A stretch of 52,165 nt of DNA from Halosimplex salinum (GCF_003730195.1 NZ_QWGG01000016.1:1-52165), one strand, 5' to 3'; positions 1 through 22,878 are shown, numbered from the stretch's first letter. Numbers and translations: made by a program. Notes: a model not told the origin generated them from the sequence alone.

Positions 1-125
1 TACTGTCTCAGTAGCCGCCGCATTCAAGAAGTCGTTAACCGAAGCTACGTCTTGCAGGGCGTTGGAGCTGGTGGACACAGTTTCCAAACCCTGCGGCCTC
101 CCTTGGGAGGCTTTCTATGACACGC
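1..125. other. Possible rearrangement junction upstream of the hsdR remnant
   Basis: This stretch reads through in frame with hsdR but encodes no recognisable HsdR motif, and the other two forward frames do not contain the missing Walker A either. It may be the end of another gene or element fused to the truncated hsdR. Its identity cannot be settled from the window. Confidence 0.35.
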
Positions 126-2116: not shown

Positions 2117-2187
2117 ACTAATTGTTTCTCAACGGAAATCCGGTCTTCCCCCGCTTCTATAGACATTAGTTCAGTAAATAGGCGCTC

Positions 2188-4182: not shown

Positions 4183-4236
4183 GGTGTTCGGCGGTTTCGG
4201 CAGGTCGGAACAAACACTGATAATCCGGTGAAAATG

Positions 4237-4242
4237 TTTAAA
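4237..4242 (+). promoter_or_regulatory. TATA-like box for the GmrSD-like gene
   Basis: TTTAAA lies 27-32 nt upstream of ATG 4269, the spacing expected for a leaderless haloarchaeal transcript. It supports the chosen start. Confidence 0.5.
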
Positions 4243-4268
4243 GAACAGGGATTTCATTTGCTTCTGTA

Positions 4269-5960
4269 ATGCAGCATAGTTTCACGCCGGAACCGGTTGT
4301 GTGCCGTGATTTGTTCGATGGTGAAGAGGATCTCTATCAAATACCGCGGTATCAGAGACCGTACAGCTGGGAGGAATCCCATATTGAGCAGTTGGTTGAA
4401 GATCTCTATGAGTCGTGGTCTGAAGACAGGGATAGCCCTTACTACCTTGGTTCAGTTATCTTGGTGAAGGAGGATGGCGACGATCGTTTCGATATCTTGG
4501 ACGGTCAGCAAAGACTGACCACGCTCACAATATTCTATGCCATATTTAATGACCACTTCAAGGAGTACCTCAGTGATAAGAATAAGAGGCGTGTCCGGGG
4601 CAGAGTCAAAGAGAGAGCATTGGAGAAACCCAGACTGAGAACTAACAAACAGGTCGATCTTGAGGAATCGGTCTTGGAAACGCTTCAACTGGATCAAGAC
4701 AACCGGTATACGAAGGCGGCAGGAATACTTATAGATGAATTGGAGGATAAGTTCGATGATCAGACCGAGAACCTGAACGACTTCTTTGAATTTGTCGACC
4801 AGCAAATCGAACTCATCAGTATTACGAGCGACGATTTAACCCATGCTGTCCGGCTCTTCCAAACTATCAACACCCGTGGCAAGGATCTGACGGTCTCAGA
4901 CCTAACGAAAAGCTACCTGTTGAGCAACTTGGAGGATAAAGAAGACAAGGACGATGTTATCGAGGTCTGGCAGGAGATCACTACGAAGGTCGATGATGAC
5001 TATGACACCCTTGATGATATCCTCGGAATGTACCGGTTGTACCTCCGGCAACAGAAAGCGAAGCAGACAACATATGAAGAACTGAAATCTGAGTTTGAAG
5101 GAGATAATCCGAAGTCGATTGTCGTAGATATACGGGACTTTGTCACCAGCTACAAAGAGATCGAAAACAGCAGCTCACAGGACATCTTTATCCTGGAGAA
5201 CCTGAAACACGAACTCTACTGGAAAACCATTCTTATCGCGGCCAAAAAGAAAGATATCGAATACATCGATAAACTACGCGACGAACTAATCGGGTTCTAC
5301 TACTCCTACTGGATGGGCGACTACACCAGCGAGAAGATCAAGATACCGTCGATCAAGATTCTCTCTAAACTCCGGGACGGAGACAGCTTTGAGGAGATAC
5401 AGAAGTACATGGAAGACAAGCGACAACGCGATAACATCCCGGAACGGGTTCGCGATGGTCTTCACTCTGAGAATGTGTACGGAAACGAAAGCTGGCACAA
5501 AAGCCTCCTGATCGCTGTAGAATACAATCGTTCCACCTCACAGACACTGGAGCGTATCAGCAAGAGCGGTGGCGGCCTGCATATCGAGCATGTGCTACCG
5601 AAAAAGTATGAGAAAGCGATGGACCGGTACGATTACTGGGAGAACCATTTCACCAAGGAAGAAGCAAGCCGGTTGAAAAACACTCTTGGTAACCTTGTAC
5701 CGCTCCAGTACGATCTAAACAGCTCTGCCGCACAGAAACCGTTCCCCGACAAGGCAGAGATCTATCGAGGAGAATCGGATAAACCCCGTTCCAGCTTCTC
5801 AACAACGCTTCGTATTGCAGAGGAGACACCTTACACTGACTGGACACCTGAGGCTATACAGGAAAACAAAGAGTTCCTCATAGGAAAGGCCGCAGAAATA
5901 CTCAATCTTCCTGAAGGCTCGATCAAGCAAGAGGATGAGGAAGATCTCATCGAGGCCTGA
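4269..5960 (+). CDS. GmrSD-like type IV restriction protein (DUF262 + DUF1524/HNH)
   Basis: This 563-aa single-chain protein has the GmrS-type ParB/DUF262 NTPase domain: the family signature IPRYQRPYSW is at residues 25-34 and the DGQQR motif at 78-82. It also has a GmrD-type C-terminal HNH nuclease, with the His-rich motif HIEHVLPKK near 437-445 and the Asn-containing stretch (NTLGNLV...N) about 30-45 residues later. Members of this family cut modified (for example glucosylated hydroxymethylcytosine) phage DNA or other foreign DNA; the modification recognised here is unknown. The gene is convergent with the histone gene, with a 21-nt gap. Together with hsdR and the HerA-like ATPase it marks this stretch as a defence island. 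Length and motif set are complete, so it is probably functional. Confidence 0.88.
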   Translation: MQHSFTPEPVVCRDLFDGEEDLYQIPRYQRPYSWEESHIEQLVEDLYESWSEDRDSPYYLGSVILVKEDGDDRFDILDGQQRLTTLTIFYAIFNDHFKEYLSDKNKRRVRGRVKERALEKPRLRTNKQVDLEESVLETLQLDQDNRYTKAAGILIDELEDKFDDQTENLNDFFEFVDQQIELISITSDDLTHAVRLFQTINTRGKDLTVSDLTKSYLLSNLEDKEDKDDVIEVWQEITTKVDDDYDTLDDILGMYRLYLRQQKAKQTTYEELKSEFEGDNPKSIVVDIRDFVTSYKEIENSSSQDIFILENLKHELYWKTILIAAKKKDIEYIDKLRDELIGFYYSYWMGDYTSEKIKIPSIKILSKLRDGDSFEEIQKYMEDKRQRDNIPERVRDGLHSENVYGNESWHKSLLIAVEYNRSTSQTLERISKSGGGLHIEHVLPKKYEKAMDRYDYWENHFTKEEASRLKNTLGNLVPLQYDLNSSAAQKPFPDKAEIYRGESDKPRSSFSTTLRIAEETPYTDWTPEAIQENKEFLIGKAAEILNLPEGSIKQEDEEDLIEA

Positions 5961-5981
5961 GAATAGATATTACCTCAAGCG

Positions 5982-6182
5982 TTAACCGTTCAAGGCATTT
6001 CGAATGTGATTCTCCTTTATAGTCTGATAACCTTGTTCCTCAGCGTTAGTTATTGCTTCTTCAGCGATGTCGCCAGCGTATTTTTCAAGGAGTTTTCCAA
6101 GTTCATTTGCGGAGGCCTGAGAAACCCGTTTATTCCCTTGATCTCCGATGAGGTTATGGATTGAGCGTGTAGAGAACTCCAT
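5982..6182 (-). CDS. Archaeal histone, singlet HMf-type histone fold
   Basis: This 66-aa protein aligns along its length with methanogen HMf-type histones. It has an N-terminal helix, the RVS loop at residues 19-21, a long central helix, then the TIK loop (54-56) and the final helix. Archaeal histones wrap DNA as dimers or extended superhelices in the nucleoid. Haloarchaeal chromosomes normally encode a tandem (doublet) histone, so a single-fold version inside an AT-rich accessory island is unusual and suggests horizontal origin. It could act on element DNA or as a small regulator. The start is supported by a TATA-like stretch (6205-6213) 23-31 nt upstream. The protein ends a few residues short of the basic C-terminus seen in HMfB. 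Confidence 0.85.
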   Translation of the reverse strand: MEFSTRSIHNLIGDQGNKRVSQASANELGKLLEKYAGDIAEEAITNAEEQGYQTIKENHIRNALNG

Positions 6183-6204
6183 AACACCTATTCAATATGT
6201 AAGG

Positions 6205-6213
6205 TATTTAAAA
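6205..6213 (-). promoter_or_regulatory. TATA-like box for the histone gene
   Basis: On the minus strand this reads TTTTAAATA, 23-31 nt upstream of the histone start codon, consistent with a leaderless transcript. Confidence 0.5.
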
Positions 6214-6279
6214 TTTGAGGACTAGATTTCTCTTGGAAACCCAAATGAAGGAAGGAGAAGGGAAAACCAAGTCAAAGAA

Positions 6280-6433
6280 AAGCGTTGAACGCTTGAGACC
6301 AAGCCCCGAGAGGGCAGTTGATCAAGGGTTCAATGCCCTTCAACCGAATTGAGGGGTTCAACCCCCAAGAGAAACGTTGAGTGGGAGAACATTGAACAGA
6401 GGGTTCACTGCGCTTTCCCAGCTTTGAACCCTT
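6280..6433. repeat. Cluster of GGGTTCAA-type repeats and short palindromes upstream of the integrase
   Basis: The 306-nt gap between histone and integrase holds no gene but is rich in iterated motifs. AAGCGTT-G-AACGCTT (6280-6294) has 7-bp arms. GGGTTCAA occurs at 6326-6333 (inside AAGGG...CCCTT) and 6354-6361 (inside GGGGTT-C-AACCCC, 6353-6365). GGGTTCAC is at 6401-6408, and the inverse TTGAACCC at 6424-6431. A spaced set of related half-sites just upstream of a tyrosine recombinase gene suggests recombinase arm/core sites or an operator array; the attachment site itself is not proven. Confidence 0.5.
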
Positions 6434-6488
6434 TCGAAACATGGTGTCACCCCTTCTTTCCTTCCATTTCACGAGGAACTACAACTCT

Positions 6489-7724
6489 ATGTCCACCACA
6501 AAATACGTCGACGTCGAAACCGCTCTCCAAAACCTAGAAGACTCCGAACTCGACAGTGAGAACGCCGAAGCCATCCACCGGTTTATCGATCACTGTGCCG
6601 CAGAAGGACTCAGCGAAGTAAGACAAAGACGTTTGATCTCCGCACTCAAATCAGTGGTTCTCAACATCGCTCCCGACAATTTCAGGTATAGAGGTGCATC
6701 GGAGGACGAACTTAAAACAGTGATCGCCTCCCTGAACCGAAGCAGCTACGCTGATTCAACGAAGCATACGATGAGAGCCGCAGTCAAGAAATTTTACAAG
6801 GTGGAGAACGGCGGACATGAGCATCCAGAGAAGGTAGATTTCTTCTCCGCCCACGCAAAGAAAGGCTCCACCGTCTCAAGAGAAGACATATTCACAGATG
6901 CAGAATTGAAAAGCCTGTTTCAAGGATTTCTCAACAGCCGTGACCGCGCATTTACGATGGTTCTATACGAGTCAGCCGCACGTCCCGGAGAACTCCTCTC
7001 TCGGAACCTCGGCGACTTCACCTCCAATGAGAAAGGCGACTTCATCTACCTCCAAGGCCTCAAGGGTACTCCTGACCGGACCAACCAACTCGTTAGAAGC
7101 GGAAGACCGTTACGTGAATGGATCGCCCAGCACCCATTAGGCGGCGAACTCGGAAACATCGAGGATCCCAGTGTCCCGATGTGGGTGAAAACACAGCAAC
7201 AACAGTGTAAGAAATGCGGTGAAATCCCTCAACGCCACAACGACTCCTGTAACTACAAACCGGATCTCGGAGACAGATGGAGCTACGACAGCTTCCGCCG
7301 CCGGTTCAAAGATGCGTGTGAACGCGCCAATATCCCGGAAAACAAGAGAAGACCCTACAATCTGCGGCACACCCGGTTAACCGAAGTAGCGACCTTCATG
7401 GGTTACGAGCAGTTGAACAAGTTCGCTGGCTGGAAACCCGGTAGTGACAGGGCTAAAGTCTACGTCCATTTGAACAACGACGATGTCAACGAAGCCATTA
7501 GAGACGAATACGGCTTAGATATCGAGGAATCCGAAGACTCGGAGATCCAGTGTCCATTCTGTAACACCGTGAATCAGTCGACCTACAGCGAATGCCGTAA
7601 CTGCGGAAGACCTCTATCTCTCAAGAAAGATTCTAAGCAGGAGAACAAGAAACAGGTATTAGAACGGTTATCTGAGTTGGAAGAAAAAGGAGTACTGGAG
7701 AGACTGGAAGACCTGGAGAGCTAA
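6489..7724 (+). CDS. Tyrosine recombinase/integrase with zinc-ribbon C-terminus
   Basis: This 411-aa protein is read from ATG 6489; a GTG/ATG 48 nt upstream would add a non-homologous tail. An N-terminal SAM-like core-binding domain is followed by the catalytic domain. The box I Arg (ARPGEL) is R165, the box II Arg (NLRHT) R293, W315 sits in the usual His/Trp position and the nucleophile is Tyr325 (VYVHL). Y290 stands where box II normally has His. Two metal-binding motifs are visible: a Cys4/His-type knuckle inserted in the catalytic domain (C240, C243) and a C-terminal zinc ribbon (C355, C358, C369, C372), then a short coiled tail. Such enzymes integrate or excise haloarchaeal elements. It sits in the middle of the AT-rich island, just after the GTTCAA repeat cluster, and is the best evidence that the island is or was mobile. 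Confidence 0.9.
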   Translation: MSTTKYVDVETALQNLEDSELDSENAEAIHRFIDHCAAEGLSEVRQRRLISALKSVVLNIAPDNFRYRGASEDELKTVIASLNRSSYADSTKHTMRAAVKKFYKVENGGHEHPEKVDFFSAHAKKGSTVSREDIFTDAELKSLFQGFLNSRDRAFTMVLYESAARPGELLSRNLGDFTSNEKGDFIYLQGLKGTPDRTNQLVRSGRPLREWIAQHPLGGELGNIEDPSVPMWVKTQQQQCKKCGEIPQRHNDSCNYKPDLGDRWSYDSFRRRFKDACERANIPENKRRPYNLRHTRLTEVATFMGYEQLNKFAGWKPGSDRAKVYVHLNNDDVNEAIRDEYGLDIEESEDSEIQCPFCNTVNQSTYSECRNCGRPLSLKKDSKQENKKQVLERLSELEEKGVLERLEDLES

Positions 7725-7803
7725 GATTCCGGACATGCGAAACCCAACTGTAACACGGACTGTCCCTTCCTGATCTAAAGCATCGTTCCTCCTCTACAGT
7801 TGT

Positions 7804-7959
7804 ATGGGACGAGTTCTACCAAGAGATCTGGCGGAGGCAGAAAAACTACTTCAGAAAATCCATTCCTGGAGTGAAGACGAAGTTGAGCAGCTACCACGGT
7901 TCTACAAGGAGAAGGCAAGAGAACTCCGAGAAAAAACGGGTTCTAACGCAGAAGGGTGA
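7804..7959 (+). CDS. Small helical protein, 51 aa, coupled to the next gene
   Basis: The frame runs from ATG 7804 to TGA 7957-7959 and encodes a charged, helix-favouring protein. Its stop overlaps the GTG start of the downstream coiled-coil gene (sequence GTGA at 7956-7959), a classic sign of translational coupling. I do not recognise a family. Size and charge resemble small antitoxin-like or adaptor proteins, but that is inference only. The gene follows the integrase by 79 nt on the same strand. Confidence 0.55.
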   Translation: MGRVLPRDLAEAEKLLQKIHSWSEDEVEQLPRFYKEKARELREKTGSNAEG

Positions 7960-8399
7960 GGACTAACCGGCTTCAAACAGTCTTCACCTATTACTTTTCT
8001 GTGGACTACTTCGACTACAGCCAAGAATTGACTGAAGATTTTGATATCGAATCGTTTCTGGAAGAATCGCAGCGTCAGGAAAAGCAGCGGCTGGAGCAGG
8101 AACTTGAAAGAATCGAGGAACAACTGGAAAGCCGTGAAGCAATCCACAAAGAGAGTTTGGACGAGTTGGAGTCAAAGCTGGACTGGTACACCGAACGGTT
8201 AGAAGATCTTAGGAAGCGGTCGTTCGGTAAACAGGAGGAGAGACAGGAGCTGAAGCAGCGGATCAACCAGTTCTACCAAGAGATACGGGAGGAGAAACAA
8301 AAACGGTGGCGTGACCGTCAAGACCTCGAAAAAGAGAGAAGACAGCTACTTCAGCAGTTGAAAGAGGTTGGTCAAGAGTCGATTTGGGAGCTATTGTAG
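7956..8399 (+). CDS. Coiled-coil protein, 147 aa, unknown function
   Basis: The start is GTG 7956, overlapping the stop of the 51-aa gene by 4 nt. From about residue 30 almost to the end the sequence is a continuous Glu/Arg/Lys/Gln-rich heptad pattern typical of a long coiled coil. The first ~25 residues are aromatic-rich (FTYYFSVDYFDYS). No enzymatic motif is seen. It lies directly upstream of the KAP NTPase gene, which has its own TATA box, so it could be a structural partner or sensor for that protein, but this rests only on position. No assignment to a named family. Confidence 0.6.
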   Translation: MRTNRLQTVFTYYFSVDYFDYSQELTEDFDIESFLEESQRQEKQRLEQELERIEEQLESREAIHKESLDELESKLDWYTERLEDLRKRSFGKQEERQELKQRINQFYQEIREEKQKRWRDRQDLEKERRQLLQQLKEVGQESIWELL

Positions 8400-8450
8400 C
8401 TTATCTTATTTTACCAGTCATTTTCCTATCCCTGACCACAAGGTGACGGG

Positions 8451-8459
8451 TTATTTATA
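8451..8459 (+). promoter_or_regulatory. TATA box for the KAP NTPase gene
   Basis: TTATTTATA lies 26-34 nt upstream of ATG 8485. This places transcription initiation essentially at that ATG and argues against the upstream TTG at 8461 as start. Confidence 0.6.
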
Positions 8460-8484
8460 ATTGGAGTACAGCATTTTCGTTATA

Positions 8485-11400
8485 ATGCCGCCTGAGAATG
8501 AGGATCTCTTCTTACCAGACCGAGCTATTACATCGGAGAAGGATGACGAGTTTGGCCATACCGAGTATGCTGACAGTCTGGAAAGAATTCTACGTAACGC
8601 AGATCCTCCGTGGCATATCGGGATTTTCGGAGAGTGGGGGTCGGGAAAAACCTCAATCATCCGTATGCTGTTTGAACGGCTTCGGAACAAGGAGGAATTT
8701 GATGACACCATATTTGTCGAATTTGACGCATGGTCGCATGCTGAGGGCTCTATCAGGACAGAGCTTCTTCTCGAACTCGATCAACAGATCGGAAACCAGA
8801 TCGGCCAGCCTGAAGGCGTTCTTACCGAAGAAGAGATCACCGGCAGGCTCTACGACGTAGAGGAAGAAGAAGTAGAAGGAGAAAGCCAAGGAGTCTGGAC
8901 AGAATTTATTGAATTTATTACGGACGAAACCCATCTAGTCATAATTACGCTACTTCTTGTTATTATTTCAGGAACATTTGCTTACTTTGGATTACCGGAG
9001 GTTTCGATAGGCGTCCTCACATTGTTGCTGGCACCGCTGTTCGTCTCAATGGCGAAAAGACTCTCCGACGCCACAGACACACTACAGAAGAAATTTCTGC
9101 ATCCGCGGAAAGAGTGGTCTGGTTCCTACCAACGGATATTTGAGGGAATAATTGAAGAATCAGAGGCGGATACGATTGTAATTTCAATCGACAACCTGGA
9201 CCGATGTGAAAGCAGTACGGTCTATGAGGTCCTTGTATCTCTAAAGACCTTCATGGAAAACGACAACTGCATATATCTAATTCCTTGTGATGACAAGGCT
9301 CTTGAGAGCCATATCAAGTCCATCGATAAAGGAGATTATTTTGAAGCAGATAAAAACGAACGAGAGTTCCTCAGAAAATTCTTCCAGACACACATCCGGA
9401 TCCCGCCATTCCTACCTGAGGATATTGAAAAGTATGCCGAAAATGAGAGCGTGAAACTCTCTGAGCCGTTTTGTGAAGAAGCCCTTGACGTCGTTACAAA
9501 TGCGTATATCGATAATCCACGTAGGATCAAACACGCGCTCAATAGGCTTTCAACTCTCCGAGTTTTAGCAGAAGAAATAGAAGAGACAGGGGCGCTGACC
9601 GAAGGACGGGTCACTGCAAACATTCCATTTTTAGCTAAGATTTCAATCCTTGAGGAGGAATACCCTGAGTTCTACGAGACGTTATCGGAGAATCCGCGCC
9701 TATTAGGAAATATCAATGACTACTTCCGAGACCAGCTAAGTGATTCAGATAAACGAGAACGCGTTAAAGCAGTATTAGAGCCGGATGAGAACGGGAAAAA
9801 CGGAGAGCAGGAATCTAGATTAGAAGCATTTCTCCGGTCGACTCGAAGAATACATGTGGAGAACCCGAATCCGTTCCTAAATCTGTCCGAACCCTCCTAT
9901 GCGACCAGTCTCACAGATGTTGACGCGTTCCTACAAAACCTTAGAACCGGGCAAGAAGAAGAGGTACGCAAAGAACTTGAACAGGTAGAAAACTATTCGC
10001 CGTATGTCGGCGCAATCGAAAACACGTTTGAAGAATATACTACAAAAAGAAGAGAACAGCCTCTCTTTGGAAGTATTGACACCACCATCTCTGTATTCGA
10101 GGAATTTGATCAGCGTTCACAAGGCCGCCTGACTCAACTGCTCGGAGAATATCTTACAACGGATCTTGGCAGAGGATTTTTGATCGAGCTAGAAGCCGAG
10201 TCTGTGTTCCCTCTCGTTCTCCAAATGAGGGACTCCGAATCAAAGTCTCTTCTTCGGGAATACGCTTCTCTGACAGCCGACGGCACTGAACTACAGGAAA
10301 ATATTCTGCAGGCGTTTATTGATCACGCCGAGGACATCCCTCAGGGAATTGCTCAAGACGTATCTAAACAGATTGAATCGCTCAGTGATGAACAATTCAA
10401 GACAGCGCTCAAAAAGATCGAATCTTCGTCAGATGCAAAAGATCGGTTTATCCGGTTTGAAACGTTAGAACTTGCGGTTTCGCTGATTGAACTCGAGGAT
10501 AATGCAAATGAGTACGTCAATACAGAGCTTTACACTCTCTTTGAGGACGTAGCTAGTAAGAAGGCGAGAGGCAAATACGTCACCCATCTATTAGACTATA
10601 GACTATCTTATTCCGGAAATCAGGAGCAGATAGTTGATAAAGAGCTATCGGGGCTGCTGTTAGATATTGAAGGAGATATTCTTCAGTCGGATGGTGAAGA
10701 AGCGCTTGAGAGTATACAGAAGATAGTTGAGGGACAAAACAATCAGCATACGATAGATATTGTGGAGATCGGATTCCATTTCTACGAATCGTTCCCGCAG
10801 AGTTCGAAACAGGAGTTCCATGAGTGGATGGCTGGACTCTTCGAAAGTCGAAACGTGAATGATATTGAAAGAATCTTTGAGATGAGTGAGGAGTACAAGG
10901 TCTCTATTGTGAAGACTGAGACTGAGGCGAGATCGATCCTCCAAAGGATACCGAATCCAATCGACAATGAGAGTTTAGTAAAGAGTAGGATTGTGCCTGA
11001 GATTTCAGAAGAGTTTAATCAGCAGCTGATCGAGAGGATGAAATATTTGATCAGACAGAATAATAACAATCATAGCCAGCTTGGTACAACGATTTTCGCT
11101 GAATATCCAGACCGGTTTGAATCTAAGTGGGGAGAACTCATAGAGCTCTGCGGCAATCAAGCAAGCAACGAAAATAACGTAACTCTGAAAAGACGATACC
11201 TGGAGCCGATCTCAGAGATATTCGGAAAGCTGGACGGTCCTCAGCAAGAGAACTTTATCAGCCAGATGGATGATCTGCTCAGAGGCAACCACAATGACAA
11301 TAAGCTTTATCGAGACCTCTGGAATAATATCCAACCGGATACTGATACAGACCGGAAAGAAACTGTTGCGGGCGACGTGAGAAATGAGCTTGTACAGTCG

Positions 11401-11757
11401 TTCAATCGAAATCAGAATCCCAGCCATCTTGATCCACTAATTGAGGTTTTGAGTTCTCTGACAGAGCACATTGGAGAAGAGAACGGACAGAGCTTCATGG
11501 ATCGTCTTAGCAAACAGCTCACCCAGAGCAATCTCAACGATAGCCATAAATCCAATGTGATTGATCAGATATCTGAGTTCGACGAATTTTATGGAAAAGA
11601 AGAACAGATTCTTGATCGTATTGAGAACCTGCTGACCCAAACGGACCACAATCATGTTACAGATAGCGCGGCGATATTGCTGGATAAGTTTGAAAGATTA
11701 GAGGTAGTTGATGATGCGAGGTTAGACCAGATTCGTAATGATCATCTCTCAGAATGA
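8485..11757 (+). CDS. KAP family P-loop NTPase, membrane-anchored, large helical C-terminus
   Basis: This is a 1090-aa protein from ATG 8485. The Walker A motif GEWGSGKT is at residues 49-56 and the Walker B-type motif VISIDNLDRC at about 234-243, the hallmark of the KAP (Kidins220/PifA) family. As in that family, two hydrophobic segments (about residues 150-200) are inserted between the Walker motifs and probably anchor the protein in the membrane with the NTPase in the cytoplasm. The remaining ~650 residues are acidic and helical, with irregular repeats resembling a HEAT-like solenoid. KAP NTPases include PifA of plasmid F, which blocks phage T7, so a defence or abortive-infection role is plausible. 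The last codons overlap the convergent AAA gene by 9 nt. Confidence 0.85.
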   Translation: MPPENEDLFLPDRAITSEKDDEFGHTEYADSLERILRNADPPWHIGIFGEWGSGKTSIIRMLFERLRNKEEFDDTIFVEFDAWSHAEGSIRTELLLELDQQIGNQIGQPEGVLTEEEITGRLYDVEEEEVEGESQGVWTEFIEFITDETHLVIITLLLVIISGTFAYFGLPEVSIGVLTLLLAPLFVSMAKRLSDATDTLQKKFLHPRKEWSGSYQRIFEGIIEESEADTIVISIDNLDRCESSTVYEVLVSLKTFMENDNCIYLIPCDDKALESHIKSIDKGDYFEADKNEREFLRKFFQTHIRIPPFLPEDIEKYAENESVKLSEPFCEEALDVVTNAYIDNPRRIKHALNRLSTLRVLAEEIEETGALTEGRVTANIPFLAKISILEEEYPEFYETLSENPRLLGNINDYFRDQLSDSDKRERVKAVLEPDENGKNGEQESRLEAFLRSTRRIHVENPNPFLNLSEPSYATSLTDVDAFLQNLRTGQEEEVRKELEQVENYSPYVGAIENTFEEYTTKRREQPLFGSIDTTISVFEEFDQRSQGRLTQLLGEYLTTDLGRGFLIELEAESVFPLVLQMRDSESKSLLREYASLTADGTELQENILQAFIDHAEDIPQGIAQDVSKQIESLSDEQFKTALKKIESSSDAKDRFIRFETLELAVSLIELEDNANEYVNTELYTLFEDVASKKARGKYVTHLLDYRLSYSGNQEQIVDKELSGLLLDIEGDILQSDGEEALESIQKIVEGQNNQHTIDIVEIGFHFYESFPQSSKQEFHEWMAGLFESRNVNDIERIFEMSEEYKVSIVKTETEARSILQRIPNPIDNESLVKSRIVPEISEEFNQQLIERMKYLIRQNNNNHSQLGTTIFAEYPDRFESKWGELIELCGNQASNENNVTLKRRYLEPISEIFGKLDGPQQENFISQMDDLLRGNHNDNKLYRDLWNNIQPDTDTDRKETVAGDVRNELVQSFNRNQNPSHLDPLIEVLSSLTEHIGEENGQSFMDRLSKQLTQSNLNDSHKSNVIDQISEFDEFYGKEEQILDRIENLLTQTDHNHVTDSAAILLDKFERLEVVDDARLDQIRNDHLSE

Positions 11758-12774
11758 GGATGATTTTATTTCCCGTGTCTTGCCTTTTCTACCGCCGTAA
11801 TGGTATTTGGCCTCGACGAGATCGAGCAGCTCCAAATCTTTGAGGAAGTCACTCAGCCGCCGGTTGCTTACAGACTCTGACTTGCAGAGTTCTTGGTACC
11901 GGTCGTAGATTTTTCCCGTGTTGATTGGCGTGCCGTGTTCTTCTTCGAGTTCCTCGATTGCTTGGTGTAGCAATCTGTGGTGCTGAGTAAAGTACCGTAG
12001 CTGTTGACTGACGTAGTCTTGATACGCTTGTCTCTGTGTCTGTCGTACAGATTCTTCTGTGATTCTGTCTTCCGTATTCTTGGCACTGGTTTTGAGCCAG
12101 GTCAAGCCTTTGCTGATGTTCTGTGTCGTGGAGGCGATATAGGTCAATGCGTTCCGGTGAAGCGTTTCCGGTTTCAACGAGTCTCTGGCCCGTTTGCCAA
12201 GTACTTGGTAGGTCTCTCCAGCGCTGTAGGGTTCGAATCCGATCCGAGAAGGTTGAAGGCTGCTGTATGTACGTTCCTCCAGTCTCTGGGAGAGATCCGT
12301 GGTCTGGGAGGAGATTATTACTATACTCAGGTTTTCGGGATTGGTCCGTGAGAGCTTGTAGAGAAGGCTGTCACCGTCATTCGATAGAAGGAAGTCGACA
12401 TCGTCCAGAACGATTAGTGTCTCTACATCGGTTGTCCGGTCTTGTATCTCTCTTTGAAGCTTAGCAGTGTGGTGGCCGTCACCAGGGTTTTCTCCAGTTA
12501 CAGACTGGTAGATCTGTTTCAAGGCCTGGTACTGGGTACTGCATCTTCTACAGGGTATGTAGCAGGTGTTGATCGAGGAGGGCAACTTCTCAATATGATC
12601 CAGTAGTAGATGAGTTTTGCCTGTGCCTCTTGGCCCGTGAAGAAACAGGTTTCTCAACTGGTTTTCCTGTATCTGGTTGATCTGTTCTCGTTCCGATTCA
12701 CGGTCTACAAAGCTACTGGGTCTATAGCTGGTTTGAAGAGGTGCAGGATCATCGATTACGGAGTCATTTTTCAT
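11749..12774 (-). CDS. Orc1/Cdc6-like AAA+ ATPase with winged-helix C-terminus
   Basis: This 341-aa protein has the N-terminal pattern of Orc1/Cdc6 (SFVDRESEREQI), Walker A GPRGTGKT at residues 47-54, a CRRCSTQYQ segment after strand 2 like the Orc1 'CRQYST' region, and Walker B IVLDDVD at 121-127. A sensor-1-like segment follows (IISSQTTD), and a C-terminal winged helix from about residue 270 ends in a basic tail. Canonical haloarchaeal Orc1 proteins of about 400 aa bind origin recognition boxes; this shorter, divergent copy in a mobile region may be an element-specific initiator or a regulatory STAND-like ATPase. It converges on the KAP gene with a 9-nt overlap. No origin repeats were recognised next to it. 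Confidence 0.75.
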   Translation of the reverse strand: MKNDSVIDDPAPLQTSYRPSSFVDRESEREQINQIQENQLRNLFLHGPRGTGKTHLLLDHIEKLPSSINTCYIPCRRCSTQYQALKQIYQSVTGENPGDGHHTAKLQREIQDRTTDVETLIVLDDVDFLLSNDGDSLLYKLSRTNPENLSIVIISSQTTDLSQRLEERTYSSLQPSRIGFEPYSAGETYQVLGKRARDSLKPETLHRNALTYIASTTQNISKGLTWLKTSAKNTEDRITEESVRQTQRQAYQDYVSQQLRYFTQHHRLLHQAIEELEEEHGTPINTGKIYDRYQELCKSESVSNRRLSDFLKDLELLDLVEAKYHYGGRKGKTREIKSSSF

Positions 12775-12956
12775 AGAGTTATACTGCCGAGGGAATGGTT
12801 AGACAGGTTTTCAGTCACCGGATTTCCAATGATAGGAGACAACTGTTTTTACTGAAGTGGGGAGGATACCGCGGAATTCCGTTAGACTACTTTATGGAAT
12901 CAAGCGAAAGACGGGGCCAAGAATGGTTTAAGAATCTGCCGTAACCCAAACAGTGG

Positions 12957-13787
12957 TTGTGGAGGGGAAAATTTGCTGTGTTTGAATCAAACGGTACTGG
13001 TAAAGGCGTTCTGCGAAGTGAAACCTATCTAACTACGGATTTTCAGCCTGAGAAACCGGTTGGGCGGGATACGGAGATCAACCGGATTGTGGATGCAGTT
13101 CGACCGCTTACGAAACGAAGGCAGCCAGAGAACTTACTGGTGTACGGTCCAGCAGGTGTCGGAAAAACCACCTGTGTCAGGCATGTCTTCCAAAAGTTAG
13201 AGGAGGAGACTTCCGTGAAGCCGGTCTACATCAATGCCTGGCAGTACAACACTCGTCCCTCACTGCTTACAGAACTCTTGATCCAGTTGGGATACCCGGC
13301 ACCGCGGAAAGGAAAACCGGTGGACGAACTTCTCAGCAAACTACGGGAATGGCTGAACAAGAACCGTGGAATCGCAGTAGCTATCGACGAGTTCGACCAA
13401 CTCAAAGACACAGAGATAATCTACGACCTCCAACTACTCAACCAAGAAGCTGAAAACCCGGTTGGAACCATTCTCGTATCAAACCAGCCTCCTACAAGGA
13501 TCCAATTTGACCAGCGAAGCCAGAGCCGTCTCTCCATGCAAACACTACAGTTCAACCCATACAGTGCTTCCCAGTTAGCTGAGATCCTTGAGACACGGGT
13601 TGAACAAGGATTCCGGCCTGGAGCAGTACCCGACGAAGTAATCCAGAAGATCGCAACCCACGTCGCAGAGAACAGCGGAGACTGTCGACAAGCACTCGAA
13701 ATACTGCTCAGGACAGGCCGAGAAGCAGACAGAAATCAAGAGTCCGAACTTACAGAGGCTTTGGTGATCCAAATACTGGAGAACTGA
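12957..13787 (+). CDS. Orc1/Cdc6-like AAA+ ATPase lacking a winged helix
   Basis: Read from TTG 12957 this gives 276 aa; an in-frame GTG at 12978 would give 269 aa and is equally plausible. It has Walker A GPAGVGKT (residues 64-71), Walker B AIDEFD (142-147), a sensor-1 segment (ILVSNQPP) and an Orc1-type lid with GDCRQALEIL near the end. It stops where Orc1/Cdc6 proteins would begin the DNA-binding winged-helix domain, so it is an ATPase-only version. It is divergent from the neighbouring minus-strand Orc-like gene across a 182-nt gap. The two differ in sequence, so this is not a recent duplication. A TTTAAGA stretch about 25-30 nt upstream of the TTG could be the TATA box. Confidence 0.72.
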   Translation: MWRGKFAVFESNGTGKGVLRSETYLTTDFQPEKPVGRDTEINRIVDAVRPLTKRRQPENLLVYGPAGVGKTTCVRHVFQKLEEETSVKPVYINAWQYNTRPSLLTELLIQLGYPAPRKGKPVDELLSKLREWLNKNRGIAVAIDEFDQLKDTEIIYDLQLLNQEAENPVGTILVSNQPPTRIQFDQRSQSRLSMQTLQFNPYSASQLAEILETRVEQGFRPGAVPDEVIQKIATHVAENSGDCRQALEILLRTGREADRNQESELTEALVIQILEN

Positions 13788-13844
13788 TTTTCTACCGGAA
13801 TTCTGACAAATACATTTTTGAAGTTTACTACCAATTTAGTACTA

Positions 13845-13890
13845 AGAGGTAAGTACCGAGCATGGATGACAAATCTCGACGTCAAGTTCT
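13845..13890 (+). repeat. Copy 1 of a 46-bp direct repeat covering RBS, start and Tat signal
   Basis: The block contains the purine-rich AGAGGTAAG, the ATG and the first codons of the lipoprotein gene. It is repeated at 14931-14976 with four mismatches by eye. Confidence 0.8.
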
Positions 13891-14938
13891 CCAATTACTT
13901 GCTTCTGGCGGCGCGCTCGGGCTAACCGGCTGTACACAACTTCTGGGTGGTACCAGTAGTACCCCAGTTCCTACAGAAGAAAGCACTTCGAATCCCACTC
14001 CAACACCAACATCTACAAAGCCCAAGATTACGACTCAAACCGACACAGCAACCGATACACCGGGACAGACAGCTACAGCTACGGCAGAGCCGTACAGTTT
14101 TGACGAGGAAAGAATACAGAAGAAAACGGAAGAATGGACAGAAGAAGTAGTCTATAACCTTCTATTAAATGACTTGAAACAGGAAAACGCCAGTGAAAAA
14201 TACGACGGCAACAAATACGGAATAAGATTCCCTAATCAAAGCAATGATGGCGATGATTACAATTATGGACATTGGACCTTAGAAGGGTTTAGAGAGACTA
14301 AAAATGCACATGACATCCTCAAGTTTGGGGCAGCAGCAATTAAAATTCATCAAGCAGAAAACGCCAACGGCCCCCCATCAACAGAAAATGACTGGTTTTC
14401 AGCAACACTAGGAGAGATAGCCAATGACCTATACAAACCCGAGAGTGAAGGAAACTTATTTGAAACAGGAGTTGCCAACCAAGGAGGACATGGAACAGTA
14501 TTTGCATACGCAAACACAGAAAACACAGAGTTGGAAAGCGAAAGCAACTGGTTCTGGATAGACACAACAGGATACAACAAAGTATCAGATATAAGAGACG
14601 CTAGGGTAGACATGGGCTACAATCCTTTAGTCCAAGGATACAAAGCCGAAGCACAGACGGATCAAGGATATGAAAGAGAAAAAGAAAGAGCAGAAAGCGC
14701 ACTATTTAGTTTAGTACATCCAATTAACGGACCAGAACTTACACACAGGAAAATAGAATTAGAAGACCAGCTCTTAGACGATATTTACAATCGCCATATA
14801 AGACAGAATGATGGATCAGCAGATCCTATAATTGAAATGGTGGAAAGAGCGGCCGATTACCAGTTAGAAACTAACGAAGAAATCGAATTACATGGAACAC
14901 TAGACGATTACAGTCTGCACACAAGCACTGAGAGGTAA
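13862..14938 (+). CDS. Tat-exported lipoprotein, 358 aa, unknown function
   Basis: The N-terminus carries a twin-Arg motif (SRRQVLQLL, Arg6-Arg7) and a lipobox ending LTGC (Cys24), so it should be exported by Tat and lipid-anchored. A Ser/Thr/Pro-rich spacer (about residues 30-75) is typical of a haloarchaeal cell-wall linker. The remaining ~280 residues contain a conserved-looking segment rich in Gly, Trp and aromatic residues (GGHGTVFAYAN; NWFWIDTTGYN) but no family I recognise. The ATG is preceded by AGAGGTAAG, an SD-like site. The gene ends 9 nt before a second lipoprotein whose first ~15 codons and upstream region are nearly identical, so the two form an operon. AT-rich codon use places it in the accessory island. 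Confidence 0.75.
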   Translation: MDDKSRRQVLQLLASGGALGLTGCTQLLGGTSSTPVPTEESTSNPTPTPTSTKPKITTQTDTATDTPGQTATATAEPYSFDEERIQKKTEEWTEEVVYNLLLNDLKQENASEKYDGNKYGIRFPNQSNDGDDYNYGHWTLEGFRETKNAHDILKFGAAAIKIHQAENANGPPSTENDWFSATLGEIANDLYKPESEGNLFETGVANQGGHGTVFAYANTENTELESESNWFWIDTTGYNKVSDIRDARVDMGYNPLVQGYKAEAQTDQGYEREKERAESALFSLVHPINGPELTHRKIELEDQLLDDIYNRHIRQNDGSADPIIEMVERAADYQLETNEEIELHGTLDDYSLHTSTER

Positions 14939-14976
14939 GTAACGGGCATGGATGACAAATCTCGACGCCAGGTTCT
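14931..14976 (+). repeat. Copy 2 of the 46-bp direct repeat
   Basis: This copy overlaps the stop codon of the first lipoprotein gene and supplies the SD-like AGAGGTAAG and start of the second. It shows that the 5' end, not only the protein signal, was duplicated. Confidence 0.8.
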
Positions 14977-16441
14977 AAAACTTCTCGGCGCAGGAGCAAC
15001 CGCTGGGCTACTAACTGGTTGTTCTGCTTTAGACGCCGACGAAAAGAGTTCTTCAACAGAACCATCGACAACTACAGAAACATCATCTAATACTCGTATT
15101 GAGACTAGTACTGCGACGGAAGAGCCTACTGACGAATCTACTGAGACTTCTGAACCGACGGCAGAGCCCGATGGAGAAATCTTTGAAAGACCTTCAGCAT
15201 CCAGATCTCAAGAAGAAATTTTAGGACTTCACAAATCTGAAAAAGAAAGAGTTGTCGAAGAGTATCCCGAATGGCAAACCTTCCTAAACGGAGTAATGGA
15301 CGAAAACGCTATGCCTGAAACCAAAAGCTCATCTTATGGATCGGTTTTTCCTCTTGATCGAGATTCTTTTGGAGGCGGCACAACAGACCCCTATTATGAG
15401 TTTAAAGAGGATTTATTCGAGAACACAACCACGGGCCAGCAGGCACTGGATTGGATACATAACCTACAGCTTAACTTCTCTATATTAGGCGCGGATGGCG
15501 AAACCAGTATTGGGCCTCCTAAACCTTTTACGAAAGAGGAGTACTCATACCCTGAAGAAAACCATAAGTTTGCGCCGATGCTTGAAACGCCAGTAAATCA
15601 ACACACAGACAACAATATTCATGTGTGGCCAATAAGTACGTTCGAAACACAATCAGGAGGTACATATGGAGATTCAGTAAGGAGAGATGATGACCAAAGA
15701 TACGGAATGTTAATGGTTCTAGACCTAGAGCAGAATGAAGCGATAATGGCGCACGCGATGGATGCATCGGATGAATTTTCCTTAAGAAGTGAGCAGGCAG
15801 AGTATCTTGGAGAGAATTTCAGGGAGAATGAGGGAAAAAGATATGATAACGGCCACATTATCCATCCTAAAATTAAGAACAGCGTGATGCACCCCGAGGA
15901 AGAACATGAGGGAGATGAAACACCTACACCTGTAGAAGGTCCTGGCGACAATACTTTCGGTGCTGGACAGGAGGGTATGGAGGCGGTTGAGAAGTACTGG
16001 CTTCCTACACGTTATGATGGTGCTGAGCCGGATATGGATGGTCTGGATATGAGAACAGCTAACATCAATCTTCTCAGAAACATCAGGAAGGCTACAGTCA
16101 GCGAACACCACGAAACATACAACACTCCGATTGGCGAAGATGCGAACGTGGCTGCCACACCTGAAGTAATCAACCAGTTCTCAGACTACGTCACCAAACC
16201 AGGAGAAAACGGTACCAGCTTTGAAGAGTTCATGTCATTCTCTTACGACCTACATCAACTGGCAGAACAGGACGGAAACTTCGTTCTCTACAACGACCAG
16301 GAAACAGGAGAACTGAACTCAGCAGAAGTATACGACGACCAGACAGTAGACAACATCCTTCAGGCTGAAAAAGGCGACATAAACTTCCAGCAAACACACA
16401 CCCTCCTAGAACCACAGGACACCACAACTGCTGGTGCGTAG
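14948..16441 (+). CDS. Tat-exported lipoprotein, 497 aa, unknown function
   Basis: The signal is nearly the same as in the preceding gene: RRQVLKLL, then a lipobox ending LTGC (Cys25). A long Thr/Ser/Glu spacer follows (about residues 30-75). The mature part of about 420 residues is acidic, with several His- and Asp-containing stretches (for example KRYDNGHIIHPKI and SEHHETYNTP), which might be metal-binding, but no catalytic family is recognised. Beyond the signal and spacer, similarity to its neighbour is weak. The ATG is 9 nt after the upstream stop, and the SD-like AGAGGTAA spans that stop, so the two proteins are probably co-translated and may work as a pair at the cell surface. It is the last gene of the AT-rich island. 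Confidence 0.75.
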   Translation: MDDKSRRQVLKLLGAGATAGLLTGCSALDADEKSSSTEPSTTTETSSNTRIETSTATEEPTDESTETSEPTAEPDGEIFERPSASRSQEEILGLHKSEKERVVEEYPEWQTFLNGVMDENAMPETKSSSYGSVFPLDRDSFGGGTTDPYYEFKEDLFENTTTGQQALDWIHNLQLNFSILGADGETSIGPPKPFTKEEYSYPEENHKFAPMLETPVNQHTDNNIHVWPISTFETQSGGTYGDSVRRDDDQRYGMLMVLDLEQNEAIMAHAMDASDEFSLRSEQAEYLGENFRENEGKRYDNGHIIHPKIKNSVMHPEEEHEGDETPTPVEGPGDNTFGAGQEGMEAVEKYWLPTRYDGAEPDMDGLDMRTANINLLRNIRKATVSEHHETYNTPIGEDANVAATPEVINQFSDYVTKPGENGTSFEEFMSFSYDLHQLAEQDGNFVLYNDQETGELNSAEVYDDQTVDNILQAEKGDINFQQTHTLLEPQDTTTAGA

Positions 16442-16764
16442 TGATGTGCTGGAATATTCTTTATACAACTCGTTCTGTAGCGGATTCTACGATATAAACG
16501 CAGTTCAACTCGGAACCAACAGTTTCTAGGAGCTTCAGCTACTACAGAGAATTGTGGGAACTGTAGTACCACAGCGAGAAATCATGAGTTCCGAGGCCAG
16601 CTTTCGAGAGACAGATATCGGCCCGTGAGCGGCGCTGTCCGTACTTAGGCTGCCCTGTCCGGGAGTCGTCGATACCCCCTTCGCTACCCGTCGAAAACGA
16701 GAGTGAAGAAGATAAGTTATGAGTCTTCGGTGCAGTCGGCAACATAGCGACCGCTATCACAACA
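16442..16764. other. Right boundary of the AT-rich island; no gene seen
   Basis: Base composition and codon style change sharply across this 323-nt gap. The left part continues the AT-rich style; from about 16590 it becomes GC-rich. A short inverted pair CTACAG...CTGTAG lies near 16538-16570. No tRNA, attachment repeat or ORF could be supported. A weak TATA-like GATAAGTTAT near 16709 may serve the next gene. Confidence 0.5.
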
Positions 16765-18186
16765 ATGTCTGGCAAATACGACCTGGTTATCGTCGGCGGC
16801 GGGATCAGTGGGGCATCGCTCCTGTACACGACCGCGAAGTTCACCGACATCGACTCTATCGCGCTGATAGAGAAGGAGCCGGAGATCGCGGCGATCAACT
16901 CCCATCGGACGAACAACTCCCAGACCCTCCACTTCGGGGACATCGAGACGAACTACACGCTCGAGAAGGCCGAAGAGGTCAAGGAGGGCGCGGAACTGCT
17001 CGCGGGCTACCTCGAACACTACGACGAGGACCGCGAGATGCACTCGAAGCGGAGCAAGATGGTGCTCGGCGTCGGCGACGAGGAAGTCGAGTCGCTCGAA
17101 TGCCGCTACGACGAGGAGGGCTTCGGCGACCTGTTCCCGAAGCTCCGCCCGATCGAGCGCGACGAGATCGCCGAGATCGAACCGAAGGTCGTGGAGGGCC
17201 GCGACCCGCACGTGGACATGCTCGCGCTCCAGACGCCGGACGGCTACGTCGTCGACTACGGACAGACGACCAAGTCCTTCGTCGAGGCGGCGGCAGAGGA
17301 GTCGAACGTCGACGTCTACACCGGCACGGAGGTCACGGACATCACGCCGACGCTCGACGGGCACACCATCGAGACCGACGCCGGTCGGTTCGACTGTGAC
17401 GCGACCGTCGTCGCCGCGGGTTCGCACAGCCTCCAGATCGCGAAGGAACTGGGCTACGGCGAGGACAAGGTCCTGCTCCCCGTCGCGGGGAGCTTCTTCC
17501 TCGCGGACGACCTGCTGAACGGGAAGGTGTACACCCTCCAGATGAAGAAACTGCCCTTCGCGGCGGTCCACGGCGACGCGGACGTCCACGACCCGAGCGT
17601 GACGCGGTTCGGACCGACCGCGAAGCTCGTCCCGACGCTCGAACGCGGTCGGATCTCCACGGTCGAGGACTTCCTCGACGTGTTCGGCCTGAACGCGGCG
17701 GCGTTCCTGAGCTACGCGAACATCCTCTCGGACAAGGTGCTCCTCCCGTACGTCCTCAGGAACCTCGTGTACGACCTCCCGGAGGTCGGGCCGAAGCAGT
17801 TCCTGCCCCACGTCCAGAAGGTCGTCCCGAGCGTCGAACTCGACGACATCGAGCGCGCGAAGGGGTACGGCGGCGTCCGACCGCAGATCGTCGACACGAA
17901 GGAGAAGTCCCTCGACATGGGCGAGGCGAAGATCGTCGGCGACGACGTCATCTTCAACATCACGCCGTCGCCCGGCGCGTCGACCTGTCTGAAGAACGCG
18001 ATGCGGGACACGCACACGTTGCTGGAGTTCCTCGACGACGACTACGAGTTCGACGAGTCGGCGTTCCGCGCGGACACCATCGACAACTTCCCCCGCGGAG
18101 AGACGGACGGGTCCGTCGACATGAGCACTGCCGACGGCGTCGACGCGGACACGGCGGACACCGCCGACACGGCCACGGACGACTGA
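16765..18186 (+). CDS. FAD-dependent oxidoreductase, malate:quinone oxidoreductase-like
   Basis: This 473-aa protein starts at ATG 16765. An N-terminal Rossmann FAD-binding motif (IVGGGISG, residues 9-16) is followed by E36 at the end of strand 2. The segment NNSQTLHFGDIETNYT (about 51-65) matches in position the conserved substrate/FAD region of the Mqo/LhgO group, and a C-terminal GGVRPQ...ITPSPGAS segment closes the FAD fold. Mqo oxidises malate to oxaloacetate and passes electrons to quinone at the membrane; related enzymes oxidise other 2-hydroxy acids, so the substrate is not certain. The C-terminus has a low-complexity acidic tail of repeated D-T-A units. It is the first GC-rich gene after the island. 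Confidence 0.75.
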   Translation: MSGKYDLVIVGGGISGASLLYTTAKFTDIDSIALIEKEPEIAAINSHRTNNSQTLHFGDIETNYTLEKAEEVKEGAELLAGYLEHYDEDREMHSKRSKMVLGVGDEEVESLECRYDEEGFGDLFPKLRPIERDEIAEIEPKVVEGRDPHVDMLALQTPDGYVVDYGQTTKSFVEAAAEESNVDVYTGTEVTDITPTLDGHTIETDAGRFDCDATVVAAGSHSLQIAKELGYGEDKVLLPVAGSFFLADDLLNGKVYTLQMKKLPFAAVHGDADVHDPSVTRFGPTAKLVPTLERGRISTVEDFLDVFGLNAAAFLSYANILSDKVLLPYVLRNLVYDLPEVGPKQFLPHVQKVVPSVELDDIERAKGYGGVRPQIVDTKEKSLDMGEAKIVGDDVIFNITPSPGASTCLKNAMRDTHTLLEFLDDDYEFDESAFRADTIDNFPRGETDGSVDMSTADGVDADTADTADTATDD

Positions 18187-18206
18187 GTAGACCGCCCGAA
18201 GAGCGA

Positions 18207-18839
18207 TTACTGCTGTCGAAACGCTCGGAGCGTGTCGCGTTTGCCGTCGCGCCGCTCCGTCTGTTCGAGGCCCAGGTCGGTGAAGATCGACCGCCAGTCC
18301 CGGTAGTAGAGCGGGAACTCGTCGCGGACGTAGTTCACGTCGGGGTCGTCGTCGTTCTCCTCGCGCTCGGCGTCGGCCGCGGCGTCCTCGATCTCGACGG
18401 TGACGAGCACGTCTCCGGTGATCCGAGCGATCTCGTCGAACACCCACTCTGCGTCGTCGGGATGGATGTGCTGTAGCGTCTGGACCGAGTAGACGGCGTC
18501 GAACTGCCCGTCCTCGAAGTCGCCGATCACGTCCTCGATGGGCTGGGCGTAGAACGTGCCCGATTCCCGGAGTTCTGGGTACTGCTCGGCCATGACGTCG
18601 AAGGCGTCCTCGTTGAGTTCGATCCCGGAGAGGTCGGCGAACCCGGCCTCGCGGAGGTGTGCGAGGTGGCGCCCGGAGCTACAGCCCAGCTCCAGCACGG
18701 ACGCCTCGCGCGCGAGCGACTCGGAGAGGACGTCGAGAACCGACTCGCTCGTCTCGTCGGCGCCGTAGTAGGCGTAATACTCGGGCGAGTACTCCCCGGA
18801 GCGGTCGGCCCACTGTCGCCGAACGTCGTTAGAATCCAC
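18207..18839 (-). CDS. Class I SAM-dependent methyltransferase
   Basis: In this 210-aa protein motif I (VLELGCSSGRH, residues 48-58) is the SAM-binding glycine loop. An acidic residue follows strand 2 (GIELNEDAF, E74), and the motif IV region (FDAVYSVQTLQHIH) lies about 113-126. The order fits Methyltransf_11/25 small-molecule methyltransferases. The substrate is unknown. It is convergent with the FAD oxidoreductase (20-nt gap) and stands alone as a transcription unit. Confidence 0.85.
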   Translation of the reverse strand: MDSNDVRRQWADRSGEYSPEYYAYYGADETSESVLDVLSESLAREASVLELGCSSGRHLAHLREAGFADLSGIELNEDAFDVMAEQYPELRESGTFYAQPIEDVIGDFEDGQFDAVYSVQTLQHIHPDDAEWVFDEIARITGDVLVTVEIEDAAADAEREENDDDPDVNYVRDEFPLYYRDWRSIFTDLGLEQTERRDGKRDTLRAFRQQ

Positions 18840-19135
18840 ACGGAAACGCGGAGTGGGACACGTATAGTCCCGTCGTCCCGACGCTCGACGCCCGTCGCCC
18901 GACCTTCGACGCCGACGGGCGCGGTACGGTACGACGTGACACCGGGCTGGAAACTGTGGATATCACCGAACGAACGCCGCAGCGCGCGGTATCGATCGAT
19001 AAACCGACCGTTATCGGAGCGTATCGGGATATTCTAAATTAATTCGGAGTCTCGAAAAACATTGTCTTCAAATTTGGATTTTTTCTGGACGAATGCGGAA
19101 CCCTTATACCTGTACCCGTAGTCTCTTAGGTTGTA
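18840..19135. other. Intergenic region upstream of cspA
   Basis: These 296 nt hold no supported gene. The final part is AT-richer and carries the cspA promoter (TTATAC at 19104-19109). The rest probably contains the methyltransferase promoter near 18860-18870, although no clear TATA box is visible there. Confidence 0.5.
19104..19109 (+). promoter_or_regulatory. TATA-like box of cspA
   Basis: TTATAC lies 27-32 nt upstream of ATG 19136, consistent with a nearly leaderless mRNA. Confidence 0.55.
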
Positions 19136-19330
19136 ATGGCATCCGGTAAGGTTGACTTCTTCAACGACACAGGCGGTTACGGTTTCATCGACACCGAGGA
19201 CTCTGACGACGACGTTTTCTTCCACATGGAGGACGTTGGCGGTGAGGATCTGACGGAAGGGACCGAGATAGAATTCGAGATCGAGGACGCCCCCAAGGGC
19301 CCCCGCGCGACGAACGTCGTCCGCAACTAA
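19136..19330 (+). CDS. cspA: Cold-shock domain protein
   Basis: This 64-aa protein is the length of a single cold-shock domain. RNP1 is present as GYGFI (residues 14-18) and RNP2 as DVFFH (26-30), the aromatic patches that bind single-stranded RNA or DNA. Haloarchaeal CspA proteins are abundant small RNA chaperones; the acidic composition is the usual halophilic adaptation. It is monocistronic, with its own TATA box. Very confident. Confidence 0.97.
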   Translation: MASGKVDFFNDTGGYGFIDTEDSDDDVFFHMEDVGGEDLTEGTEIEFEIEDAPKGPRATNVVRN

Positions 19331-19481
19331 CCGAGGTTCGCACCGTCGCCTCACGGCGACCGAACGTACTTCGTTCTTCTGCACGCTACACCGACGAGCG
19401 ACCGCGTTACCCGAACGGACGTCCAGCGTCGACCGCTGAACCCCCGAAACGTTGAAACGGAAGACGTTCGTTCGTTTACAC

Positions 19482-20252: not shown

Positions 20253-20255
20253 TCG

Positions 20256-21029: not shown

Positions 21030-21051
21030 CGGGTGCTCCCGGAGGCGTTCG

Positions 21052-22832: not shown

Positions 22833-22878
22833 GTCCGGCGTTCGGGGTAACGCGTACCGCTCGCTCGGTCGCGCCCGG

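Follow-up and report, generated by a model that had tools for sequence, protein, structure and literature searches.

Background

PifA, which is encoded on the F plasmid, protects its carrier against viruses. The main text of Moi et al. 2022 (PMC9259645) describes fsx1 elements with XerC/D, HerA, VirB4 and TraG/VirD4, for which fusion-dependent transfer was proposed; ORC1 is not mentioned in that main text. Among thaumarchaeal ICEs, two iMGE carry Cdc6/Orc1, and other conjugative elements of archaea, too, are reported to lack relaxase and oriT (PMC6563490).

Here, we analysed a stretch of 52,165 nucleotides from Halosimplex salinum (the window, positions 1-52165) together with a second contig of the same genome (C23). 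We suggest, with a probability of about 0.85, that the gene block described below is the right part of a haloarchaeal integrative conjugative-type element of about 39 kb, composed of a conserved backbone and variable cargo. The sequence itself shows att repeats beside a border integrase, a T4SS operon that includes a conserved 323-aa protein, one HerA-like ATPase, one internal recombinase (INT), and a conserved module formed by a 51-aa ORF, a coiled-coil protein (CC), OrcA and OrcB. The variable cargo, lying between and beside these genes, includes type I restriction, GmrSD, a KAP NTPase, a QatC-like gene and two lipoproteins (Table 1). This class of haloarchaeal conjugative-type elements has already been partly described, and the assignment to it is supported; the Orc-type variant seen here was not found described in the literature searched.

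Table 1. Features of the element on contig C23 and in the window.
Feature	Location	Strand	Evidence or remark
Border integrase, tyrosine recombinase	C23:559762-560727		PF00589 1.1e-23
QueC-like/QatC-like protein, 487 aa, cargo	C23:564562-566025		QatC 6.8e-30
Complete T4SS operon	C23:566937-573714		
HsdR, N-terminal part	C23:580121-581170		End of contig C23
HsdR, C-terminal part, type I restriction, cargo	window 62-2116	+	TIGR00348 2.6e-94
HerA/VirD4-like ATPase, backbone	window 2188-4182	+	DUF87 2.6e-5
GmrSD/DUF262-type restriction protein, cargo	window 4269-5960	+	PF03235 3.3e-37, PF07510 1.5e-17
INT, internal Xer-like tyrosine recombinase with C-terminal zinc ribbon, backbone	window 6441-7724	+	PF00589 9.1e-8
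51-aa conserved ORF, backbone	window 7804-7962	+	ORF with 47-67% identity in each of the 15 other Orc-type loci
CC, coiled-coil protein, backbone	window 7956-8399	+	34-55% identity in 15 other Orc-type loci
KAP P-loop NTPase, cargo in the CC-OrcA gap	window 8485-11757	+	PF07693 8e-29
OrcA, Orc1/Cdc6-type AAA+ with winged helix, backbone	window 11749-12774	-	TIGR02928 2.9e-54, Cdc6_C 5.9e-15
OrcA/OrcB divergent intergenic region	window 12775-12956	.	
OrcB, Orc1/Cdc6-type AAA+ without winged helix, backbone	window 12957-13787	+	TIGR02928 7.9e-59, residues 19-270
Lip1, Tat lipoprotein, cargo	window 13862-14938	+	RR motif and LTGC lipobox recognised on inspection
Lip2, Tat lipoprotein, cargo	window 14948-16441	+	Leader and start nearly identical to Lip1
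attR, right end of the element	window 16584-16599	+	16-bp direct repeat ATGAGTTCCGAGGCCA

Extent and ends of the element

Over the first 16 kb or so of the window, GC content ranges from 42-50% (about 46% for the island), and beyond 17 kb it is mostly 62-74%. A preliminary description had placed an AT-rich block at 7804-16441; its low GC content is real, but the block runs far beyond these limits, from position 1 to 16599 of the window and then over another 22 kb of C23. The genes listed in that description do belong to the element, and the KAP NTPase, both Orc-like ATPases, the coiled coil and the two Tat lipoproteins were confirmed by profile matches or by inspection, but the integrase, HerA-like ATPase, GmrSD and HsdR genes of the same element lie outside the block as first drawn. 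Two NTPase classes were found instead of the three claimed, because OrcA and OrcB are both of the Orc1/Cdc6 type, and the 51-aa ORF at 7804 is a conserved gene in its own right rather than the start of the coiled coil.

A second identical copy of the 16-bp repeat ATGAGTTCCGAGGCCA was found at C23:559188-559203. It precedes by 65 bp the border integrase operon, a two-gene unit that forms the left edge of the element. Thus, both marks of an integrative element, att repeats and an adjoining tyrosine recombinase, are present, and the positions of the two copies give a size of about 38.7 kb when the IS described below is left out of the count. Three further elements contain paired repeats of a similar motif, and the same integrase type is present in all four elements. 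The orientation of the att motif relative to the element varies among these four. An empty integration site was not found, and the flanks were not syntenic in two genomes of the same genus; relatives of the right-flank gene occur in two of three same-genus genomes, and the left flank does not lie beside them. Viral contigs gave distant integrase matches and nothing else.

The hsdR gene is split over the two contigs. Since the contig ends at this break carry a 15-bp terminal inverted repeat together with a duplicated 9-bp target (GACCAGTTA), insertion of an IS into hsdR is the likely cause of the contig break. We infer the join between C23 and the window from these sequences, as the assembly does not connect the two.

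Transfer operon and recombinases

We used INT as the bait for a synteny analysis of 16 Orc-type loci across Halobacteria. The relatives have a second conserved block in common, an operon on the minus strand with genes for a T4SS pilin, a membrane protein of VirB6-like type, VirB4, the 323-aa protein and VirD4, accompanied by DUF932. The operon is complete on C23, which also carries DUF932. Its VirD4, 323-aa, VirB4 and VirB6-like proteins are 54-67% identical to those of the closest relative. For the T4SS parts, profile matches were obtained to TrwB (4e-8), to T4SS_pilin (3.1e-5) and, below the curated cut-off, to NF045975 for VirB4 (3.5e-45). The VirB6-like protein has no Pfam match and was assigned from its position and apparent TM content. 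The element encodes both ATPases, VirB4 and VirD4, together with a VirB6-like channel protein and a pilin. Among the genes scanned, neither a relaxase nor an oriT was recognised.

One might regard the locus as an immobile defence island in which the T4SS-like genes are relics, as it is rich in defence genes, its hsdR is interrupted, and hsdS, which lies on C23 with hsdM, reads as two overlapping ORFs. However, full-length, closely related T4SS operons occur in many families, the att repeats are intact, and the 85-91% identity of HsdR between the window and elements of different families implies that transfer was recent. We regard immobility as very unlikely. The GmrSD gene was not conserved at the same place in relatives.

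In the order-level genome sample, INT was present in 22 of 392 genomes, mostly at 62-78% identity, in genera including Haloferax, Halorussus, Halobellus, Halonotius, Halorhabdus, Natronococcus and Halovenus, and its residues RHTR and Y341 are invariant in 17 members. VirD4 was likewise found in 22 of the 392 genomes, and 15 genomes have both where 1.2 would be expected (p 6e-17, computed, like the other co-occurrence statistics, without regard to the phylogenetic relatedness of the genomes). INT was rejected as the sole integrase, because the att site adjoins another recombinase and a third type lies at the border of other elements. HerA-like orthologues in other elements share 43-68% identity and form a cluster of 19.

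The conserved Orc module

The HerA-like ATPase (55-68% identity), CC, OrcA in reverse orientation and OrcB recur around INT with their relative order mostly kept and with different intervening genes; a few elements have the CC-Orc module on the opposite side of HerA and INT. The arrangement 51aa-CC-OrcA(-)-OrcB is kept in 16 loci with INT and the HerA-like ATPase nearby and the VirB2/VirB6/VirB4/VirD4 operon on the same element. The 51-aa ORF accompanies CC and OrcA in all 16, usually immediately 5' of CC. CC and OrcA overlap or abut tail to tail in eight loci, are separated by 236 bp in one, and enclose KAP or other genes (at least 1 kb) in seven. Of 293 genomes, 14 have a member of the OrcB family; INT is present in 13 of these and VirD4 in 12. 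A plasmid of Halobaculum limi carries an OrcB relative with neither OrcA nor INT nearby.

The 16 aligned OrcA proteins share 35-53% identity. OrcA possesses both the AAA+ core and the C-terminal winged helix, whereas OrcB possesses the core alone, ending after the AAA lid in all 14 members aligned. OrcA is for that reason the likely DNA binder of the pair. Comparison of 14 loci by eye showed a conserved stretch, about 35-40 bp long, upstream of OrcA. Inverted ORB repeats with a G-string, which mark an origin beside an orc gene (PMC3528665), were not found in the OrcA/OrcB intergenic region of the window; inverted repeats of any kind were lacking there down to a length of 11 bp. A guessed 9-mer was inverted in one of 14 loci, and we do not claim it as an ORB-like motif.

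As to the function of the pair, a role in replication has a competitor that concerns this step alone, in which OrcA and OrcB would resemble AAA+ proteins of the TnsC/TniB type and serve as a switch for targeting, immunity or the licensing of transfer. It would agree with the missing winged helix of OrcB, with the lack of visible ORB repeats, and with OrcB matches to TniB (1.6e-6), to TnsC (6.7e-5) and to the profile of a phage transposition ATPase (1.6e-12). Nevertheless, Orc1/Cdc6 is by a wide margin the best match of both proteins, and Orc1/Cdc6 initiators are common in haloarchaeal replicons (PMC3528665), so that we consider such a switch a minority possibility.

The KAP NTPase and the lipoproteins

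KAP has 1090 aa, of which the N-terminal part alone is matched by known KAP proteins, and hydropathy predicts two TM helices within the NTPase domain, as in the KAP family. It matches PifA (4.9e-19) and QatA (4.2e-17), and the QatA model NF041923 at 1.5e-21, below cut-off. A first contig scan with KAP as the only query gave no match. Among the 16 Orc-type loci, KAP lies between CC and OrcA in two, the window and Haloferax gibbonsii. Five other full-length or near-full-length relatives have no Orc neighbours, and solitary relatives reside on unrelated plasmids, pHTUR05 and a Halococcus plasmid, with recombinase and restriction genes near. KAP was therefore rejected as a core gene, and in the simplest reading it is probably virus-exclusion cargo of a PifA/Qat-like kind. 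OrcB and KAP occur together in two genomes (p 0.04); the association rests on these two, and common descent may be its cause. A QatC-like operon was also observed in both KAP-bearing elements, about 23 kb from KAP within the same element, which we record as a weak lead.

This raises the idea of a split Qat-like system, with KAP as QatA and the QueC-like protein as its partner. The matches of KAP to QatA models and of the 487-aa protein to QatC, and the joint presence of both genes in the two elements, speak for it. On the other side, the genes belong to separate operons, QatB and QatD were not recognised, and KAP relatives elsewhere showed no QatC-like match within the stretch fetched, and the link depends on two genomes; the complete set QatA-QatB-QatC-QatD is not found together. 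We think that this idea is unlikely to be correct.

The two lipoproteins show the Tat-lipoprotein pattern (MDDKSRRQVL...LTGC) on inspection, with weak profile matches, and the duplicated start noted earlier is real, 50 of 61 bp being identical over leader, start and signal peptide. When we searched with the full-length proteins, matches were almost confined to the signal peptide. Mature Lip2 gave one weak partial match (28% identity) among 293 genomes, mature Lip1 and Lip2 gave no Pfam match at E<=5, and AlphaFold single-sequence models were useless (pLDDT 34 and 33, respectively). Because their mature parts have no convincing relatives, the lipoproteins were rejected as members of a common system; they are likely surface cargo, and a part in surface exclusion is a guess.

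These results bear on the central proposal of the preliminary description, that KAP, the Orc pair and the lipoproteins form a single signalling or exclusion system spanning the envelope. The genes are adjacent within one low-GC block, and in two species KAP shares the gap position with the Orc pair. However, since KAP is present in two of 16 loci and solitary elsewhere, and mature Lip2 has one weak match, the full set does not hold together in relatives, the outcome that the description itself had named as refuting, and a single system appears most improbable. Synteny is striking across families for 51aa-CC-OrcA-OrcB, while KAP and the lipoproteins are scattered or not conserved. The looser guess of virus exclusion or element transfer does fit a conjugative-type element with a putative PifA/QatA-like KAP, though not as one system.

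Proposed mode of action

We infer the roles of the excision, transfer, replication and defence genes in the integrative element as follows. The border integrase would excise the element as a circle. OrcA would use its winged helix to bind DNA, and OrcB, which lacks that domain, would be its ATPase partner; the pair would start or license replication of the circle and so serve its maintenance. INT would resolve multimers. VirD4, VirB4 and HerA would drive DNA through a T4SS-like channel. Finally, KAP may protect the carrier from viruses as PifA does, and the lipoproteins may cover the surface of the cell and possibly act in exclusion. In some 16 genomes, a conjugative-type element combines defence cargo with att sites and a T4SS that can be recognised, and these genomes suggest a rule for reading such islands: backbone genes hold their order, and genes in gaps such as that between CC and OrcA are candidate defence cargo.

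Comparison with known systems

KAP resembles PifA, the F-plasmid phage exclusion protein, and QatA in its P-loop domain and in being an NTPase on a mobile element, but differs in that its N-terminal part alone is matched and in lacking QatB/QatD partners. Plasmids of the pR1SE type (PMC10818511) are also haloarchaeal, encode an ATPase with a VirB4/HerA-like predicted structure and in some cases carry CDC6/ORC1; they are described as non-conjugative and vesicle-forming, with other core genes, and by this description they differ from the present element. Thaumarchaeal ICEs (PMC6563490) share VirB4/VirD4/VirB6, a large size and no recognised relaxase with the present element. Unlike it, they were reported to be non-syntenic with one another and ParB-linked, whereas gene order is largely conserved here and the Orc genes form a divergent pair in which OrcB has no winged helix.

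The fsx1 elements share the T4SS/HerA backbone with the present element; as these are described in the main text of PMC9259645, both have VirB4, VirD4/TraG, HerA and an XerC/D recombinase signature. Two genomes of our sample with VirD4 and without INT (G373 and G284) encode 653-aa proteins matching fusexin-1 (PDB 7P4L, 1.7e-89 and 8e-88), and their T4SS operons belong to the family seen here, the VirD4 proteins sharing 88-89% identity with the VirD4 of one Orc-type element. Members of the CC cluster are also present in these two elements, but INT, OrcA and OrcB were not found within the 45-50 kb examined, and the 51-aa ORF had no convincing match. Conversely, tblastn with two Fsx1 proteins found no fusexin in H. 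salinum or the other Orc-type loci. Multi-TM proteins of 546-611 aa were rejected as fusexins: one had no PDB match, another contains HEEKH, and they look like M48-type proteases. With two fusexin elements examined, the either/or pattern is no more than suggestive. A doubtful extension of it, to which we give a low probability, would be one chassis in two forms, one with a fusexin for cell fusion and the other with INT, 51aa, OrcA and OrcB, the Orc pair, in which one subunit has no DNA-binding domain, being a dedicated replicate-or-license switch for transfer that replaces fusion. The same transfer machinery comes in natural fusexin-plus and fusexin-minus versions, which makes the role of Fsx1 in DNA transfer testable.

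Borders and the hsdR and hsdS genes of the element

The 15-bp inverted repeats (GAGCGTGTCATAGAA) of an insertion sequence, together with a 9-bp target duplication, lie at the start of the window and the end of C23, the H. salinum contig carrying the rest of the element. Based on these sequence features, hsdR appears to be split by the insertion sequence, which also appears to be the reason for the break between the two contigs. While HsdS is a single ORF of about 430 aa in relatives, on C23 it comprises two overlapping ORFs with one specificity domain each, suggesting a frameshift or assembly error. The distance from the att motif to the border integrase genes was equal in four elements (H. 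salinum, G296, G239 and G235), and the motif lay on the minus strand in G239 and G235 but on the plus strand in the other two.

Other genes of the elements and a stretch of Lip1

Features and their locations
Feature	Location	Match
Insertion sequence ends	window 1-136; final ~135 bases of C23	
HsdS ORFs (173 and 299 aa)	C23:578797-580114	
QatC/QueC-like protein, three-gene operon	C23:563707-566025	PADLOC QatC, 6.8e-30
AAA ATPase	C23:560921-562315	anti-phage IetA, 2e-35
Multi-TM proteins	L108:12191-13948; L076:1268-2989	
MntA-like nucleotidyltransferase, 164-aa neighbour	L090:9313-10481	
3626-aa open frame	G254 joined region 11997-22877 (L112 + L087)	
Lip1 stretch	window 14480-14585	

The QatC/QueC-like operon is shared with Haloferax gibbonsii (G239), the second KAP-bearing element, and a gene for a 437-aa protein adjoins the AAA ATPase. 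In relatives, two multi-TM proteins are encoded close to the T4SS operon, and the one bearing an HEEKH motif looks like an M48-type metalloprotease. The nucleotidyltransferase and its neighbour, found jointly in several elements, are possible toxin-antitoxin cargo. The G254 frame, within one element, has hydrophobic segments at both N- and C-terminal ends and is predicted to be a giant surface protein. In the Tat lipoprotein Lip1, the stretch GHGTVFAY...WFWIDTTG faintly resembles the His/Asp portion of transglutaminase-like folds, and the corresponding Cys is absent.
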